In this document: positions 6,468 to 46,018 of the stretch, piece after piece
Numbering within the stretch: position 1 is the first letter of the stretch
Layout of the letters: each line of letters begins with the position of its first letter
Assembly: GCF_011174775.1 (NCBI RefSeq)
Contig: NZ_JAANHS010000003.1
Coordinates: 1 to 64,000 of the forward strand
DNA length: 64,000 bases
From: Rhodobacter calidifons
GTDB lineage: Bacteria; Pseudomonadota; Alphaproteobacteria; Rhodobacterales; Rhodobacteraceae
Direction: 5' to 3'
Position numbers and translations under genes: made by a program
The notes under the pieces: generated by a model
Told to the model about the DNA's origin: nothing
The model's database searches: none
Seen by the model: only the letters and a program-made list of their open reading frames with translations

Positions 6468-10046
<3,579 letters not shown>

Positions 10047-10112
10047 CGGCCCGCCCCCTCCCTGCGCGTCCTTGGTGGCCTGGGGCGGACCCGGATGCAA
10101 GAGGCGGTCCGC

Positions 10113-10757
10113 CTACTTTTCCACGCGGGCGAGCAGGTCTTCGACCTTCGGCCCCAGAGCTTCGACAATCAGCCGCACGCCCTCGGCGTTCGGATGCAGC
10201 CCGTCCGCCTGCATCCAGGCCGCCAGCGAGGCAGGGTCAGACGGATCGGCCCCTGCCGCGCGCAGTCCCTCGAAGAAGTCCTCGGCCAGCAGCGCCCCAT
10301 ACTGGCCGGCAAGTTCGCCATACATCGCGTCGAAGGCCGCCTTGTAGTCGGGTCCGAAATTTCCCGGCGCCTTCATCGCCACCAGAAGCACCGGCAGGTT
10401 CCGCGCCGCGGCCTCCTTCAGGATCCCGTCAAGGTTGCGCCGCGACTCGGCGGGGTCGATCCCGCGCAACAGGTCGTTGCCGCCCAGCGTGACCACCAGC
10501 GCCTCGGCCTCGGGCCCCAGCGCCCAGCCGATCCGGGCCAGCCCGCCCGCCGTCGTGTCGCCCGAGACGCCCGCATTCTGCACCACCACATCATGCCCGC
10601 GCGCCCGCAGCCAGCCTTCCAGCACCGGCACCAGACCCTGGGACGCGTCCGCCAGCCCGTAGCCCGCCGTCAGACTGTCGCCCAGTGCCACGACCGTGAC
10701 CGGCTCGGCCATGGCCCAACTTGACAGTGCCAAGACTGCAAGTGCAGCATTGCGCAT
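10113..10757 (-). CDS. tesA: Periplasmic GDSL esterase / acyl-CoA thioesterase I-like
   Basis: 214 residues from ATG 10757. Signal peptide about 1-17 (MRNAALAVLALSSWAMA). SGNH blocks: ALGDSLTAGYG (Ser28), a Gly in NAGVSGDTT, GGND, and DGLHP with the catalytic Asp-His near the C-terminus. Matches the TesA/arylesterase family (lysophospholipase L1, periplasmic in E. coli). It is divergent from the ybbA-ybbP transporter, the same arrangement as tesA/ybbA/ybbP in E. coli, which supports the assignment. Only about 50 bases separate the divergent starts. Confidence 0.9.
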   Translation of the reverse strand: MRNAALAVLALSSWAMAEPVTVVALGDSLTAGYGLADASQGLVPVLEGWLRARGHDVVVQNAGVSGDTTAGGLARIGWALGPEAEALVVTLGGNDLLRGIDPAESRRNLDGILKEAAARNLPVLLVAMKAPGNFGPDYKAAFDAMYGELAGQYGALLAEDFFEGLRAAGADPSDPASLAAWMQADGLHPNAEGVRLIVEALGPKVEDLLARVEK

Positions 10758-39476: not shown

Positions 39477-40903
39477 AACCCGCAACGCCCCTGTCCCGCC
39501 CGTCGGTCCTGCTTGTCGAGGACACCCTTTCCCTGCAGATGGTCTATCGGTCGATCCTGGCCACGGCCGGGCACCGGGTGGCTGTTGCCGGAACCGCCGA
39601 GGAGGGGTTGCAGCAATTCCGGGCGCATCGTCCGATGGTGGTGCTGCTGGACCTGATCCTGCCGGATCGCGATGGTCTGGAAGTCATGCGCGACATCCAG
39701 GCAATCCAGCCGGAGACCCGGGTGATCGCGATCACCGCCAACGGATCGGTCAGCCGCGCGGTCGAGGCGATGCGCGCCGGGGCGCATGACTTTCTGGTCA
39801 AGCCTTTTGACGAGGGGCGCTTTCTGTCCGCCGTCCAGAATGCCCTGGCCGAGGCAACCCCGCGCGACACCGGCAAGACCGACGGCCAGGCCGCCACGCG
39901 CGGCCGAGACCCGGCGGAGATTGCCGAAAGTTCCGGCTTCATCGGCTCTTCCGACGCGATGAAACGCATCCACATGACCATCGGCTCGGTCGCGCGGTCG
40001 ATGGCGACCGTGTTCATCACCGGCGAAAGCGGCACCGGGAAAGAGCTTTGCGCGCTGGCCGTCCATGCCAATTCCAACCGGGCCAATGGGCCGTTCATCG
40101 CGCTGAACTGCGGCGCGATTCCGCAGGACCTGCTGGAATCGGAAGTCTTCGGCCACATGAAGGGCAGTTTCACCGGCGCGATCTCGGACAAGCAGGGGGC
40201 CGCGCAGGCGGCGGATGGCGGCACCCTGTTCCTGGACGAGATCTGCGAAATGGCCCCGGCCCTGCAAACCAAGCTCTTGCGCTTCCTGCAAACCTCGACC
40301 GTCCAGCCGGTCGGCGCCACCCGGCCGCGCAAGGTCAACGTCCGCATCGTCTGCGCGACCAACCGCGATCCGCTGGACGCCGTGCGTCGCGGGCATTTCC
40401 GCGAGGATCTGTACTACCGGCTCTATGTCGTGCCGATCCACATGCCGCCCCTGCGCGAGCGCGGACAGGACATCATCGAGATCGCCGAGGCCGCGCTTGC
40501 CCGCTTTGCCCAGGAAGAGGGGCGCGAGTTCCACGGGCTCGACCCCGCCACCCGCGCGCTGATGCTGTCCCTGCCCTGGCCGGGGAATGTCCGTCAGCTG
40601 TTGAACGTCATGCGCAACGTGGTGGTGCTGAACCAGGGCGGCTGGGTCACGCCCGACATGCTGCCTCCGGGCCTGGCCGAGGAAGGGCGCCCCGCCGAAC
40701 CACCATCGCCGCCGATGGCCGCGCCCGATGCGCTTGGCACCGACAGCCTGCTGGGCCTGCCGCTGGCCGAGGCCGAACGCCGGCTGATCGAGGCCACGCT
40801 TGCCATGCATGGCGGCTCGATCCCCAAGGCGGCGCGGGTGCTGGATGTGTCGCCCTCGACGCTCTACCGGAAGATCGAGGCCTGGAACGCAAAGGCCAGC
40901 TAG
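39473..40903 (+). CDS. Sigma-54-dependent response regulator, LuxO/NtrC type
   Basis: 476 residues in three parts. Receiver domain 10-125 with Asp60 (VVLLDLILPDRDG) and Lys110. AAA+ domain about 155-390: Walker A GESGTGKE (184-191), sigma-54 contact loop GSFTGA (231-236, usually GAFTGA), Walker B GGTLFLDEI, arginine finger region REDLYYRL. C-terminal Fis-type HTH (AEAERRLIEATLAMHGGSI, AARVLDVSPSTLYRKI). Overlaps the HPt gene by four bases, as a signalling pair. Target genes unknown. Converges on ugd with a 4-base overlap. Confidence 0.92.
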   Translation: MKPATPLSRPSVLLVEDTLSLQMVYRSILATAGHRVAVAGTAEEGLQQFRAHRPMVVLLDLILPDRDGLEVMRDIQAIQPETRVIAITANGSVSRAVEAMRAGAHDFLVKPFDEGRFLSAVQNALAEATPRDTGKTDGQAATRGRDPAEIAESSGFIGSSDAMKRIHMTIGSVARSMATVFITGESGTGKELCALAVHANSNRANGPFIALNCGAIPQDLLESEVFGHMKGSFTGAISDKQGAAQAADGGTLFLDEICEMAPALQTKLLRFLQTSTVQPVGATRPRKVNVRIVCATNRDPLDAVRRGHFREDLYYRLYVVPIHMPPLRERGQDIIEIAEAALARFAQEEGREFHGLDPATRALMLSLPWPGNVRQLLNVMRNVVVLNQGGWVTPDMLPPGLAEEGRPAEPPSPPMAAPDALGTDSLLGLPLAEAERRLIEATLAMHGGSIPKAARVLDVSPSTLYRKIEAWNAKAS

Positions 40904-42204
40904 CGACCGACCCCGACATAGGCGGTGAACCCGGCCGCGCGCACTTCGGCCGGATCATAGATGTTGCGCAGGTCGGCCATCTGCGGGGTTGCCATCTTGC
41001 GCGCCAGCTTGGCCAGGTCGAGGCCGCGGAACTCGTTCCATTCGGTCAGAAGGACCACGAGGTCGGCATCGTTGGCGGCCTGATAGGGATTGTCGATCCA
41101 TTTCACGCCCGGCAAGAGCGCCTCGCCCTCATGCCTGCCCTGGGGATCGCTGACCCGGACCTTCGCCCCCCCGCCCACCAGCGCCGGGATGATGGTCAGC
41201 GAGGGCGCCTCGCGCATGTCGTCGGTGTTGGGCTTGAAGGTGACGCCAAGGACCGCGATGGTCTTGTCGCGGAGCACCCCGCCGCAGAGATCGACGATCT
41301 TGTCGATCATCCGGCGCTTCACTTCCTCGTTGACCTTGATGACCGTCTCGACGATCTGGATCGGCGCGGCATGTTCCTGTCCGATACGGGCCAGGGCCTT
41401 GGTATCCTTTGGAAAACAGCTTCCGCCGTAGCCGGGGCCGGCGTGCAGGAACTTGTCGCCGATGCGCCCGTCCATGCCGATGCCCCTGGCCACCGTCTTC
41501 ACATCCGCGCCGACCTTCTCGCACAGGGCGGCGATCTCGTTGATGAAGGTGATCTTGGTCGCAAGGAAGGCGTTGGCGGCGTATTTGATCAGCTCGGCGC
41601 TTTCCAGTCCGGTGTAGACCATGGGAAACTCGCGCAGGGACAACGGGCGGTAAAGTTCGGCCATCACCTTGCGCGCCTTTGGCGTCTCGACGCCCACCAC
41701 CACGCGGTCGGGATGCATGAAATCGTCGATCGCCGCGCCTTCGCGCAGGAATTCCGGGTTCGAGGCGACGTCGAAGGCGGCCGCCGGATTGGCCTCGCGG
41801 ATCGCCGCGGCCACCTTGCGGTTGGTGCCGACCGGCACGGTGGACTTGGTGACCACCACCGCATAGCCCGTCAGGGCCCTTCCGATCTCGGCCGCCGCGG
41901 CCATGACATAGGTCAGGTCTGCATGCCCGTCGCCGCGCCGTGTCGGCGTGCCGACCGCAATGAACACCGCGTCGGCGCCATCGACGGCTGCGGCAAGTTC
42001 GGTCGTGAAGCTCAGCCGCCCGGCGCTGGTGTTCTTGGCGATCAGCGCCTCTAGGCCCGGCTCGAAGATGGGCACCTCGCCCTGGTTCAGCCGCGCGATC
42101 TTGCCCGCGTCGCGATCGACACAGACCACCTCGTGCCCGAAATCCGAAAAGCAGGCGCCAGAGACCAGCCCGACATACCCTGTCCCGATCATCGCGATGC
42201 GCAT
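40900..42204 (-). CDS. ugd: UDP-glucose 6-dehydrogenase
   Basis: 434 residues. Oxidises UDP-glucose twice with NAD to UDP-glucuronate for capsule, exopolysaccharide or lipid decoration. N-terminal MRIAMIGTGYVGL nucleotide-binding motif, VGTPTRRGDGHADL, STVPVGT, and GYGGSCFPKD with the catalytic Cys263. C-terminal VLGVTFKPNTDDMREAPS. Length fits the family. No other polysaccharide genes are adjacent. Confidence 0.95.
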   Translation of the reverse strand: MRIAMIGTGYVGLVSGACFSDFGHEVVCVDRDAGKIARLNQGEVPIFEPGLEALIAKNTSAGRLSFTTELAAAVDGADAVFIAVGTPTRRGDGHADLTYVMAAAAEIGRALTGYAVVVTKSTVPVGTNRKVAAAIREANPAAAFDVASNPEFLREGAAIDDFMHPDRVVVGVETPKARKVMAELYRPLSLREFPMVYTGLESAELIKYAANAFLATKITFINEIAALCEKVGADVKTVARGIGMDGRIGDKFLHAGPGYGGSCFPKDTKALARIGQEHAAPIQIVETVIKVNEEVKRRMIDKIVDLCGGVLRDKTIAVLGVTFKPNTDDMREAPSLTIIPALVGGGAKVRVSDPQGRHEGEALLPGVKWIDNPYQAANDADLVVLLTEWNEFRGLDLAKLARKMATPQMADLRNIYDPAEVRAAGFTAYVGVGR

Positions 42205-42290: not shown

Positions 42291-42662
42291 TCAGGGTCGC
42301 TCGGGTTTCGGATGGCGGGCCTTCACGCGGGCCACCGCGTCAAGCCAGGCCTCCTGGCTGACCTCGCCGCGCTGCCAGCGGAAGAACAGCGGGTCCGCCT
42401 CGGCGGCCAGGGCCAGGCGCACGGTTTCGTCGCGCTGGGCAAGCGCGGCCGCATGCGCTGCTTCTGCCGCCTCTGCCATGGCCTCGGGGGTCGGGGCCTC
42501 CGGTCTGGCCGGACTGCGGGCCACCCATTTCCCGCGCGCGGTGCGGCGATGCGCGGCCAGGAACGCGACTGTCAGGCCCTCGACCGGCTCGCTCCCCTCG
42601 CGCGGGGCCTCGCCGATCCACCCCGGGATGCCGTCTTCGGTGAACAGGACGTGCAGGATCAT
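42291..42662 (-). CDS. Small phage-type protein downstream of the tail-fibre-like gene
   Basis: 123 residues from ATG 42662 (MILHVLFTEDGIPGWIGE). Ala/Glu-rich middle; the end DPLFFRWQRGEVSQEAWLDA and KARHPKPE resembles the C-terminus of small proteins that accompany phage tail-fibre genes. It starts one base after the DUF2793 gene ends, so they form an operon. Possible chaperone or tail accessory; unproven. Confidence 0.65.
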   Translation of the reverse strand: MILHVLFTEDGIPGWIGEAPREGSEPVEGLTVAFLAAHRRTARGKWVARSPARPEAPTPEAMAEAAEAAHAAALAQRDETVRLALAAEADPLFFRWQRGEVSQEAWLDAVARVKARHPKPERP

Positions 42663-42663
42663 G

Positions 42664-44874
42664 TCAGTAGTCGCTTTCGATATAGAGGCCCATCGTCGCA
42701 AAGCCGATGACCGAGTTGGTGCCGCCGACGCTGATGTAGCCGTAGGGCGTCAGAAGCTGCGTGGCAGACGGCAGGTCGGTGGTGACTGTTCCCGTGGCCA
42801 CAGCACCCGATACGAGGTTCGTCACTTCGTAGCCCAGCGACTGCGTGGTGCCGGGCGGCGCAAAGAGGGCAATCTCGTAGACCGCGGTCCGGTCGGCGTT
42901 CGGTTTGGGAAAGCCCGACCCCAGGTCGATCTTCGTCGCTGTTCCGCTTCCGTCGTTGTGCATGAACTGGATGTTCGTGTCGCCGGCGTCATAGCCCATG
43001 CCGCAGATGTTGGTCAGCGTGGACGGGTTGACGTCTGACGGCGCGGAAGCCGATCCGCGCATGCCGACAAAGACCCGGTGCGTGCTGGTGGCGACCCCTG
43101 TTGCCGGACCCCAGCGCCAGACGAGGTGGAAGCCGCCCAGTTCGGCGGAAGGCCCGCCAAGCGTCCACTGCAAGGCGTTTCCGCGCAGACCGGCCACCGC
43201 CGTAGTGGATGCAGTTGTCACCAACCATGACCGCCTGCGCATGTAGTTGTGCAGGTTCGAGGTGCCGACGTTCTCGGATGTGGCGGTGCCCGTCCCGGTC
43301 ATGGCAATGCCGACCGCCGTATCCGTGCCGCCGTTTCCGGCAGCCATGAACATGCCGATCTTGTTGCGGGCAAAGGACGGCTGCAACGCGCTGTCCAGAC
43401 CGCTCGGTCCCATGAAGGCCGGCATGGACCGCCCTCCGACCTTGCGGCCGAACAGCTTCACCCCGTCTGCTGCCGGAACGGCAGGCGTCGCAATGGTCGG
43501 CAGGCGCAGCTGTCCGCCCTCGATCTCCACGTCCGCCGCGCCGCCGAAGCTGCCGGCATCGTTGAACTGGACCGTGCCAGAGGCTCCTCCGGGCGATCCG
43601 CCGCCACCGCCGGGCGGTGCGGCCCAGGTGCCATCGGCGCGCAGGAAATTGGTCGTCCCCCCGCCCGAGGCCGGAGCCAGGCCCTTCGCCCCGCTGGTGA
43701 AGGTGTCCAGCAGCGCCGTGGCCTGCGTGCCCGTCAGATCCTCCGGATCGCCGCTGCCCGCGCTTGACCGCCCCTTCAGCGTGCCCGAGGCCATGTCGGC
43801 CAGCTTCGCGTTCGTCACCACATCGTTCGCAATCGTTGTCGCGCCATCGCCTGTCGAGGTGACATCGCCGCTGTGGTTCGGGTGCGCGTAGTTGTTCGCC
43901 CCGTCCGCCACGTTCAGGATGGCGCGCGCCTGTGCGGGCGTCAGCACCTCCGGCGCGCCCGTCCCTGCCGAGTCCCGGCCGAGGAAGCTGTTCGTCGCGA
44001 TGTTCGCAAGCTTGTCCAGGGTCACCGCGCCCGCGTCGATCGTCCAGATCGTCCCCGCACCCGACACCGTGATGTCGCCCTTGTCGCCGTCGCTGACACC
44101 GCCGCCGCCGCCACCGCCGACGACCTGGGTCACGCCGGCGCTGCGCACCTTCACCTCGCCGGTGGTGGTGTTCAGCCACAGCGTGCCGTCAACCGGCGCG
44201 GCGGGATCGCTTGCCTGACCGCCCAGATGCAGAGGCTGCGGCAGGGTCACCTCTCCGGTCGCCGCGTCCGAGATCAGCGCGACCGACCAGCTTCCACCAT
44301 CGGCGCTGACCTTGACGCTGAAATCGTCCGCCCCCGCCGTGCCCATCTCGGCCCGTCCCCCGAAGCCCGTCTGGAACAGAAGGCTCGCCGTGTCCGAGGC
44401 CGCGGCCTTGTTCAGCTTCAGCTGGTGCCCCGATCCCGCATGGTTCAGCAGCGTCGCAGGAGAGGACACCGCCAGCCGGTTCGTGGCATCCGGCGTGGCC
44501 GAGACGCCCAGCCGCCCCACCGTGAACGGCCCGTCCGACAGCGCGATCCAGGTCAGGCCGTTGTAGAAGGCCATCTGGCTTTCCGCCATCACATAGGCCT
44601 GCCAGCCCGGCAGCGGCTGCGTGAACTGCCAGCCCGCCTCGGTGAACATGGCGATCCGCCCCGCCTGCCCGGTCCAGGGGCCGGTCGCACCTGCCGCCAC
44701 GATGTGCCGGTCACCGATGGCGGGCAGCGCGGGCGGGGTGGTCAGGGTCCGGTTGATGACCGCAAGCTGCACGATCAGGTCCAGCTTCACCAGGGCCTCG
44801 TTGTGGGTGACATGCTTCTGCGCCTGCGCCGGAAGGATCAGGGGCAGCGACAGGATCGTCGTATCGTCGGGCAT
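42664..44874 (-). CDS. DUF2793 tail-fibre-like protein
   Basis: 736 residues from ATG 44874, with GGAGG eight bases before it. The N-terminal 110 residues are DUF2793 (LPLILPAQAQKHVTHNEALV, GDRHIVAAGATGPWTGQAG, then MAFYNGLTWIALSD), a domain of phage and gene-transfer-agent (GTA) tail proteins. The middle (about 230-430) holds fibre-like repeats (TLKGRSSAGSGDPEDLTG; FLRADGTWAAP) and Gly-rich hinges; the C-terminal 300 residues may be the receptor-binding head. No other structural phage gene is nearby, which suits the unlinked fibre genes reported for Rhodobacterales GTAs. Prophage remnant is the alternative. Confidence 0.8.
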   Translation of the reverse strand: MPDDTTILSLPLILPAQAQKHVTHNEALVKLDLIVQLAVINRTLTTPPALPAIGDRHIVAAGATGPWTGQAGRIAMFTEAGWQFTQPLPGWQAYVMAESQMAFYNGLTWIALSDGPFTVGRLGVSATPDATNRLAVSSPATLLNHAGSGHQLKLNKAAASDTASLLFQTGFGGRAEMGTAGADDFSVKVSADGGSWSVALISDAATGEVTLPQPLHLGGQASDPAAPVDGTLWLNTTTGEVKVRSAGVTQVVGGGGGGGVSDGDKGDITVSGAGTIWTIDAGAVTLDKLANIATNSFLGRDSAGTGAPEVLTPAQARAILNVADGANNYAHPNHSGDVTSTGDGATTIANDVVTNAKLADMASGTLKGRSSAGSGDPEDLTGTQATALLDTFTSGAKGLAPASGGGTTNFLRADGTWAAPPGGGGGSPGGASGTVQFNDAGSFGGAADVEIEGGQLRLPTIATPAVPAADGVKLFGRKVGGRSMPAFMGPSGLDSALQPSFARNKIGMFMAAGNGGTDTAVGIAMTGTGTATSENVGTSNLHNYMRRRSWLVTTASTTAVAGLRGNALQWTLGGPSAELGGFHLVWRWGPATGVATSTHRVFVGMRGSASAPSDVNPSTLTNICGMGYDAGDTNIQFMHNDGSGTATKIDLGSGFPKPNADRTAVYEIALFAPPGTTQSLGYEVTNLVSGAVATGTVTTDLPSATQLLTPYGYISVGGTNSVIGFATMGLYIESDY

Positions 44875-45124
44875 CAGAAACCTCCGGAGATCGCCTTGGC
44901 CCGCGACCCTAGGAAGGCTTCGTTCACGTCGGCTGAGCAGACCGCACGGCCCCGTCCGAACCCGCGCAACACCAGAACCCGGGCGTACCTCGGCAAGACC
45001 CGCCGTCTGGCCTTGGCCCTTCGCCAGGCGCTCCGACCTCGGGCAGCCGACGGTCCGCCCCGGCGGAGCTTTCGTCCGGCGTGACAGGTGCATGGCGGGC
45101 GATCACGCCCGCAATGCGCCGGGC

Positions 45125-46018
45125 TCAGGGTTCCGGCTGCGGCGGAATCCGCCCTTTCCTGGCCTCGGCCCAGGTGTTCAGGCTGACCGCCCCCACGATC
45201 AGCGCGCCGCCCAGGATCACGAAGCCGTCCACCGCCTCGCCGAAGACCAGCGCCCCCAGAAGCGTCGCCCAGAGGATCTGGAGGAACGTCACCGGCTGCG
45301 TCACCGCCAGAGGCGCCGCCCTGAAGGCCCGGGTCATCGTGTAGTGCCCCAGCGTCGCCAGCGCCGCGACCCCGGCCAGCCAGGCCAGCTGCTCGGCGCT
45401 GACCGGCTGCCAGACCCACCATGCGATCGGCGCCAGCCCGATTGCCACCGTCACCGACAGGACCGCGACCACCACGCTTGCCGGGGCCATCGCGCTCAGC
45501 CGCTTGGCGAAGATGTAGCTGATCGCAAAACAGAGCGTCGCCGCCAGCTGGGACAGGTGGCCGGGCGTGATCTCGCGCAGGCCGGGCCGCAGGACGACCA
45601 GTGCCCCGAGAAGCGCCACCATGATGCTGACCAGCCGACCACGCCCCAAACCTTCTCCCAGCAGCAGGCCGGCGATCACCAGCACGATCACCGGATTGAG
45701 GAACCCGATCGCTGCCATCTCGGCCACCGGCACCCGGGCCATGGCCCAGAACCAGAAGATCACCGCCGCGACATGCAGGCCCCCGCGCCAGAGGAACAGG
45801 GGCCAGATCCCCTCGGGCAGCCGCGTGCCTCGCATCGCCCACAGTGCCGGGACCAGGAAGGTCAGGCCGAAGGCAAAGCGGATGAACGCCGACTGCGCTG
45901 CCGGAAGGTCGGTTCCCAGATGCCGCACGATCCCGTTGACCCCGACGAAGGCCAGCGTGGTGGCCAGCATCCACAAGACCCCTTCCACGGGGCGGCCAAG
46001 ATCCGACATCGCGCGCAT
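45125..46018 (-). CDS. DMT superfamily (EamA) transporter
   Basis: 297 residues; ATG 46009 (MSDLGRPVEG) is three codons later. Ten helices in two EamA repeats, with ALLGALVVLRPG closing the first and QPVTFLQILWATLLGALVFGE in the second. Exporter of unknown substrate; RarD/RhaT-like relatives move amino acids or drugs. It follows argO with 21 bases between, so may be co-transcribed with it. About 250 bases downstream separate it from the tail-fibre gene; nothing notable is seen there. Confidence 0.87.
   Translation of the reverse strand: MRAMSDLGRPVEGVLWMLATTLAFVGVNGIVRHLGTDLPAAQSAFIRFAFGLTFLVPALWAMRGTRLPEGIWPLFLWRGGLHVAAVIFWFWAMARVPVAEMAAIGFLNPVIVLVIAGLLLGEGLGRGRLVSIMVALLGALVVLRPGLREITPGHLSQLAATLCFAISYIFAKRLSAMAPASVVVAVLSVTVAIGLAPIAWWVWQPVSAEQLAWLAGVAALATLGHYTMTRAFRAAPLAVTQPVTFLQILWATLLGALVFGEAVDGFVILGGALIVGAVSLNTWAEARKGRIPPQPEP

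Follow-up and report, generated by a model that had tools for sequence, protein, structure and literature searches.

Introduction

The closest described system to the locus examined here is the tail fibre of RcGTA, the gene transfer agent (GTA) of Rhodobacter capsulatus. This fibre, Rcc00171, is a protein of 371 amino acids for which a rod/knob nomenclature exists (PMC7296036), and it binds the capsule, the GTA receptor in R. capsulatus, and appears to be essential for DNA transfer (PMC10218006). Its gene is already known to be unlinked, homologues of GTA fibre genes lie outside the cluster in D. shibae, and the DUF2793 family co-evolves with GTA genes (PMC10883770). Capsule genes adjacent to head-spike genes have also been published for R. 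capsulatus. The amount of DNA carried by RcGTA is roughly 4.5 kb (PMC9690577). Why cells retain a particle that spreads genes but kills its producer is not settled; in one proposed answer, the benefit has to be confined to kin that bear the right surface receptor (PMC10883770).

Here we analyse a 64-kb stretch of DNA from Rhodobacter calidifons (the window), which is part of contig C33 in a genome of 3.62 Mb in 59 contigs. An initial annotation of the window had proposed a DUF2793 fibre gene and a small partner as a possible unlinked GTA module. We consider it probable that the pair is the fibre of the organism's own RcGTA-type GTA, with a tip and partner acquired from phages, and that selection keeps the neighbouring ugd gene linked to it.

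The fibre gene and its small partner

The features of the locus, with the evidence for each, are as follows.

42664-44874, minus strand: GTA tail-fibre gene, 736 aa, orthologue of rcc00171 as judged by sequence (open reading frame, DUF2793, match to the 371-aa fibre, tree)
44245-44874, minus strand: fibre residues 1-210, DUF2793-bearing rod and knob, the vertically inherited part and predicted dock on the megatron/baseplate (57.6% identity to the R. capsulatus fibre)
43585-44109, minus strand: approximate shaft with DUF5907-like repeats, of species-variable length (two sub-threshold DUF5907 stretches)
42667-43509, minus strand: fibre residues 456-736, the tip, a putative carbohydrate-binding domain (phrog_13925, viral-contig matches, low-confidence model)
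42291-42662, minus strand: small partner, 123 aa, putative tip-specific assembly factor (two viral contigs, L327 and L328, have homologues directly behind this tip)
40900-42204, minus strand: ugd, UDP-glucose 6-dehydrogenase, which makes a surface-polysaccharide precursor; adjoining gene (translation, genus synteny)
45125-46018, minus strand: EamA-type transporter gene, upstream neighbour kept in the genus, given for context only (translation, synteny)
44905-44970, minus strand: promoter-like sequence conserved ahead of the fibre gene (27 aligned upstream regions, 41.6-bit profile)

Both frames of the pair were confirmed as annotated: the fibre runs from an ATG at 44874 to a stop at 42664, and the partner starts with an ATG at 42662, one base past the fibre stop, and ends at 42291. 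Pfam places DUF2793 at fibre residues 24-109 (E=8.8e-30), the two DUF5907 stretches lie in the middle of the fibre, and the C-terminal region matches phrog_13925 (E=1e-90). The C-terminus of the partner matches the phage families phrog_2432/5714 (about 1e-6 to 1e-7). Fibre and partner are genuine genes and neither is a chance open reading frame: their GC3 is 0.82-0.85, all 32 congeneric genomes have the fibre, and the sequence of the partner is conserved from species to species.

Capsid, terminase and megatron homologues were not found in the 64-kb window, and no attachment-like repeats flank the pair, in agreement with the isolated position first reported for it. The annotation had also taken the host-like base use of the pair as a sign of long residence. 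The resemblance to the neighbours stands (codon distance 0.119 for the pair vs 0.107 +/- 0.024), but we reject the argument drawn from it, since a prophage megatron gene of the same genome is equally host-like (0.112) and composition therefore carries no weight on residence time.

Orthology and the GTA cluster

The genome of R. capsulatus DSM 1710 was found via the solved capsid sequence; it holds a single DUF2793 match, in an open reading frame whose 371 amino acids equal the published length of Rcc00171. The best match of this fibre among the five DUF2793 copies of the R. calidifons genome is the window fibre, at 57.6% identity over residues 1-210 only, with the next full-length match at 45.8%. 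A tree of 81 sequences, from which vB_DshS-R4C is absent, splits 69 solo fibres, including those of the window and of R. capsulatus, from 12 phage or prophage copies with a support of 0.974. On sequence and tree we identify the window fibre as orthologous to the tail fibre of RcGTA, Rcc00171, and the proposal of an unlinked GTA module is supported.

Most congener loci with readable flanks retain both EamA and ugd beside the fibre; the relatives have the same solo gene in the same place, and a decayed prophage was not seen there. Orthologues range in length from 468 to 880 aa, some being cut by contig or locus ends, and capsid, terminase or megatron genes were found near the fibre in 0 of 60 solo loci. 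Across 397 genomes, one per genus, the fibre and the GTA capsid co-occur with an odds ratio of 7.1 (p=2e-11), at thresholds that let in a few prophage DUF2793 copies: 285 genomes have both, 36 neither and 35 the capsid only, while the 41 with a DUF2793 match and no detected capsid probably reflect prophages in part. This co-occurrence agrees with the published co-evolution of DUF2793 and GTA genes (PMC10883770).

A search of the rest of the genome, as the initial annotation had advised, revealed a complete RcGTA-type head-tail cluster on contig C4 (L015), behind fabF/mltG-like genes. It contains terminase, portal, capsid and tail genes together with a 1297-aa megatron; over almost its whole length the capsid aligns with Rcc01687, and the megatron aligns with its R. 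capsulatus counterpart in PDB 6tba. There is no DUF2793 gene beside this cluster, and the fibre on C33 and the head-tail genes on C4 are thus encoded apart. A GTA-type lysis pair, consisting of a glycoside hydrolase family 108 endolysin and a holin-like gene, stands alone on C55. The GTA megatron gene (L015:15931-19824) has a GC3 of 0.76, below the 0.87 of the window genes and the 0.89 of a prophage megatron.

The other four DUF2793 copies, on C14, C12, C20 and C26, belong to a different group from the window copy. Those on C14 and C12 lie directly 3' of a GTA-like megatron gene in a prophage-like order, and that on C26 follows an apparent megatron end. Extra GTA-like megatron genes outside the true cluster are present on C12, C13, C14, C30 and C58 (L012-L014, L017, L021, L022), at least two of them directly followed by a DUF2793 fibre: besides its GTA, this genome houses several prophages, whole or fragmentary, that have baseplates of the GTA type. 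We also note that PDB 8gtc chain S, a DUF2793 protein of a siphophage baseplate, is named Ribonuclease III, apparently a misnomer.

Tip and partner

In 58 solo fibres the part beyond the docking half falls into about nine tip groups, and tips are therefore exchanged while the docking part stays conserved. The window tip is found in six IMG/VR contigs (L324-L329) at 44-84% identity. In both L327 and L328, a homologue of the partner begins 1-2 bases after the tip gene. In L325 (893-3669) a DUF2793 adaptor of 226 aa, placed after a megatron, and an 84%-identical tip are two separate genes, a layout that could give rise to a fused fibre. Given these layouts, tip and partner look like a phage cassette joined to the GTA adaptor in an ancestor of the genus, which makes the docking part vertical and the tip phage-derived. 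A direct scan of the viral contigs for partner homologues gave none; they turned up beside the tip instead.

Prediction of the C-terminal structure, also suggested at the outset, was informative only in part: the model of residues 456-736 matched many legume lectins (best E 3e-7, TM about 0.5), but it is of low confidence (pLDDT 55.6). Carbohydrate binding by the tip is a lead, consistent with the binding of capsule by the R. capsulatus fibre.

The model of the partner (pLDDT 91) comprises strands, one long helix and one short helix. Despite this high confidence it matched no PDB fold, and the sequence matched no Pfam entry and no known chaperone family. Among the solo loci examined the partner is restricted to this genus; it is absent from the R. 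capsulatus locus, and it is missing in several congeners that keep a similar tip; a helper role is therefore plausible and an essential one is not. Tail-fibre chaperones help fibre tips to fold or assemble, and by analogy the partner most likely acts on its tip in this style.

Promoter region

The upstream regions of 27 fibre genes from the genus and close relatives align over GTTGCG at 44970-44965 and a 53-nt block at 44957-44905. The fibre promoter is strongly kept in the genus, with GTTGCG, GCGCGCGGTCTG-like and CCTAGGGTC blocks. When the same profile was run over 468,254 positions, the region upstream of the GTA lysis gene (L301, about 1403-1455) ranked 11, several motif definitions having been tried, and a shared activator site for the fibre and lysis genes is possible on this sequence evidence. 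In this exploratory promoter analysis, a GafA-like box common to the fibre, GTA-cluster and lysis promoters is weakly suggested in the genus and is not shared across the family, no full CtrA site was found in the organism's own genome and a convincing GafA or CtrA site for the fibre was not found.

Linkage to surface-polysaccharide genes

In R. capsulatus (L197) the fibre gene has dTDP-rhamnose genes, a family-2 glycosyltransferase and an ABC-2 permease beside it, and for this reason we tested for linkage to glycan genes. The reference set, which does not depend on the loci tested, was made up of 32 colanic-acid and O-antigen proteins from E. coli K-12; the test set consisted of 40 solo loci in 40 genera outside the hypothesis set, picked from a similarity ranking by contig position only, and each was paired with a control window of equal size 80 kb off on the same contig. 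A glycan gene lies within 6 kb in 23 of 40 fibre loci and in 1 of 40 controls (Fisher p=2.2e-8), and the difference is significant at every match threshold from 1e-6 to 1e-25. For 13 of the 40, the closest glycan gene begins no more than 450 bp from the fibre. Pfam inspection of the 17 negatives, made on fibre loci only, showed a glycosyltransferase, phosphomannomutase or polysaccharide gene near some of them, and 23/40 is therefore a low estimate.

The neighbouring glycan genes differ by genus (ugd, manC, glf, wcaJ-like, wzc-like, rml). Phylogeny was handled by collapsing shared contexts only: with loci sharing at least two neighbours merged, 11 of 19 contexts are positive vs 1 of 35 controls (p=8e-6). 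The controls comprise one window type and one GTA gene, the lysis gene, which is near a glycan gene in 0 of 20 of the same genomes and, being fixed in location, serves as a control for GTA genes generally and not for roaming genes. Genera share neighbours at the fibre locus in 8% of genome pairs, vs 92% for the lysis gene, and a coupling between tip type and neighbour type is not clear. As for ugd, its adjacency and kept synteny are confirmed, whereas the earlier remark that the link may be chance does not fit the family-wide association, of which the ugd neighbour is probably a part and no accident. Linkage of tail fibres to polysaccharide genes was not found described in the literature searched, which did not take in the 2016 paper of Hynes and colleagues.

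The same fibre type occurs on 148 PLSDB plasmids, mostly of Rhodobacterales. All 14 inspected plasmids, including a 65-kb Phaeobacter plasmid, have an annotated surface-polysaccharide gene adjoining the fibre or a few genes off, a count that serves as illustration and not as a controlled test, as these plasmids are rich in such genes. Many RepA-I-type Rhodobacterales plasmids carry a solo fibre beside rhamnose, GDP-mannose or fucose genes, one example being pP10_c of Phaeobacter inhibens (L360, fibre at 8977-10233). A 16-kb sequence labelled as a Bacillus velezensis plasmid (NZ_CP061939.1) has a Rhodobacterales-type GTA fibre, probably through contamination or mislabelling.

Discussion

We propose that the rod and knob (residues 1-210) attach the fibre to the GTA baseplate megatron made from the C4 cluster, and that the tip at the C-terminus binds one of the sugars in the recipient's coat, by which the particle would be oriented for DNA delivery; docking and sugar binding are both suggested by the R. 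capsulatus orthologue and by fold. Tip and partner would have been gained together from phages, the partner aiding folding or assembly of the tip, and selection would hold the receptor-binding fibre linked to surface-polysaccharide genes across the family; here we infer both the role of the partner and the selective reason for the linkage. Fibre and receptor would then be inherited as a matched unit, possibly moved on one GTA fragment of roughly 4.5 kb, and fibre, partner and ugd together span 3,975 bp, less than this load. Hynes and colleagues reportedly described in 2016 that two unlinked RcGTA loci are often transferred, probably by viruses, and this would fit the tip exchange seen here.

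Could the pair instead be what is left of a decayed prophage, a fibre with a small tail gene? The window tip is phage-related and four other contigs of the genome carry DUF2793 fibres, at least two directly after GTA-like megatron genes; however, the 60 solo loci are free of nearby capsid, terminase and megatron genes, the solo copies group with Rcc00171 in a separate clade and every congener examined keeps the gene, so we regard such an origin as very improbable. It is also highly unlikely, in our judgement, that the gene has been lost from GTA use and now does something else, such as forming a fibre on the cell surface or binding receptors as a protein that acts alone. The 41 genomes with a DUF2793 match and no detected GTA capsid would suit such a role, but the strong co-occurrence with the capsid, the published co-evolution (PMC10883770) and the complete GTA cluster of this genome argue for continued GTA use.

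More weight must be given to a reading of the linkage in which the fibre lies near glycan genes only since it lands in variable islands and plasmids rich in them, with no receptor matching. The position of the locus is indeed unstable across genera, many copies are carried by RepA-I-type plasmids in which exopolysaccharide genes already abound and tips do not clearly track the type of neighbour, whereas the close spacing in 13 of the 40 loci, with almost no glycan genes in windows of the same contigs, and the stable location in this genus speak against it; we think it has a real chance of being right, though less than an even one. Equally tentative is a broader form of our proposal, which we would not yet bet on: that in Rhodobacteraceae and their plasmids the fibre and receptor-synthesis genes are a lock-and-key unit, swapped together and possibly in one GTA particle, such that exchange stays among cells with the same coat, in a greenbeard-like manner. 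A repeated linkage of the fibre to sugar genes of the receptor type would amount to a trace, in the genome, of kin targeting. Several marine species may carry their GTA fibre on biofilm plasmids, in which case plasmid loss could alter GTA targeting.

Comparison with known systems

The head spikes of RcGTA, GhsA/GhsB (rcc01079/01080), are head and not tail proteins, unlike the window fibre, and their linkage to capsule genes is published for R. capsulatus only, in the literature searched. TspA (rcc02623), the detachable RcGTA tailspike (PMC13420450), is like the window fibre the product of an unlinked GTA gene and acts on extracellular polysaccharide, but it is a beta-helix enzyme in a conserved module with lysS and not a DUF2793 fibre.

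RcKemmy, RcRhea and vB_DshS-R4C, phages with GTA-like baseplates, have fibres that share the DUF2793 N-terminus, and the RcKemmy tip is homologous to the window tip. Unlike the window gene, these phage genes lie directly 3' of the megatron and fall outside the solo clade (R4C not being in the tree). The partner resembles Tfa-type chaperones in being small, in its place directly after the tip and in travelling with the tip, and differs from them in having neither a Pfam nor a fold match, so that the likeness is one of how it may work. The RepA-I-type plasmids of Phaeobacter and others (2016, cited in PMC8224337) have a solo fibre of the window type beside sugar-nucleotide genes, as in the window, whose copy differs in lying on a 346-kb contig.

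Rcc00171 (ADE83936.1) remains the nearest relative. The window fibre departs from it in length (736 vs 371 aa), in its added shaft repeats, in a tip unrelated to the Rcc00171 foot, in the partner gene that follows and in having ugd as its glycan neighbour. The two share an orthologous DUF2793 rod and knob, and both genes are unlinked from the GTA cluster, free of phage genes nearby and adjoined by surface-polysaccharide genes.
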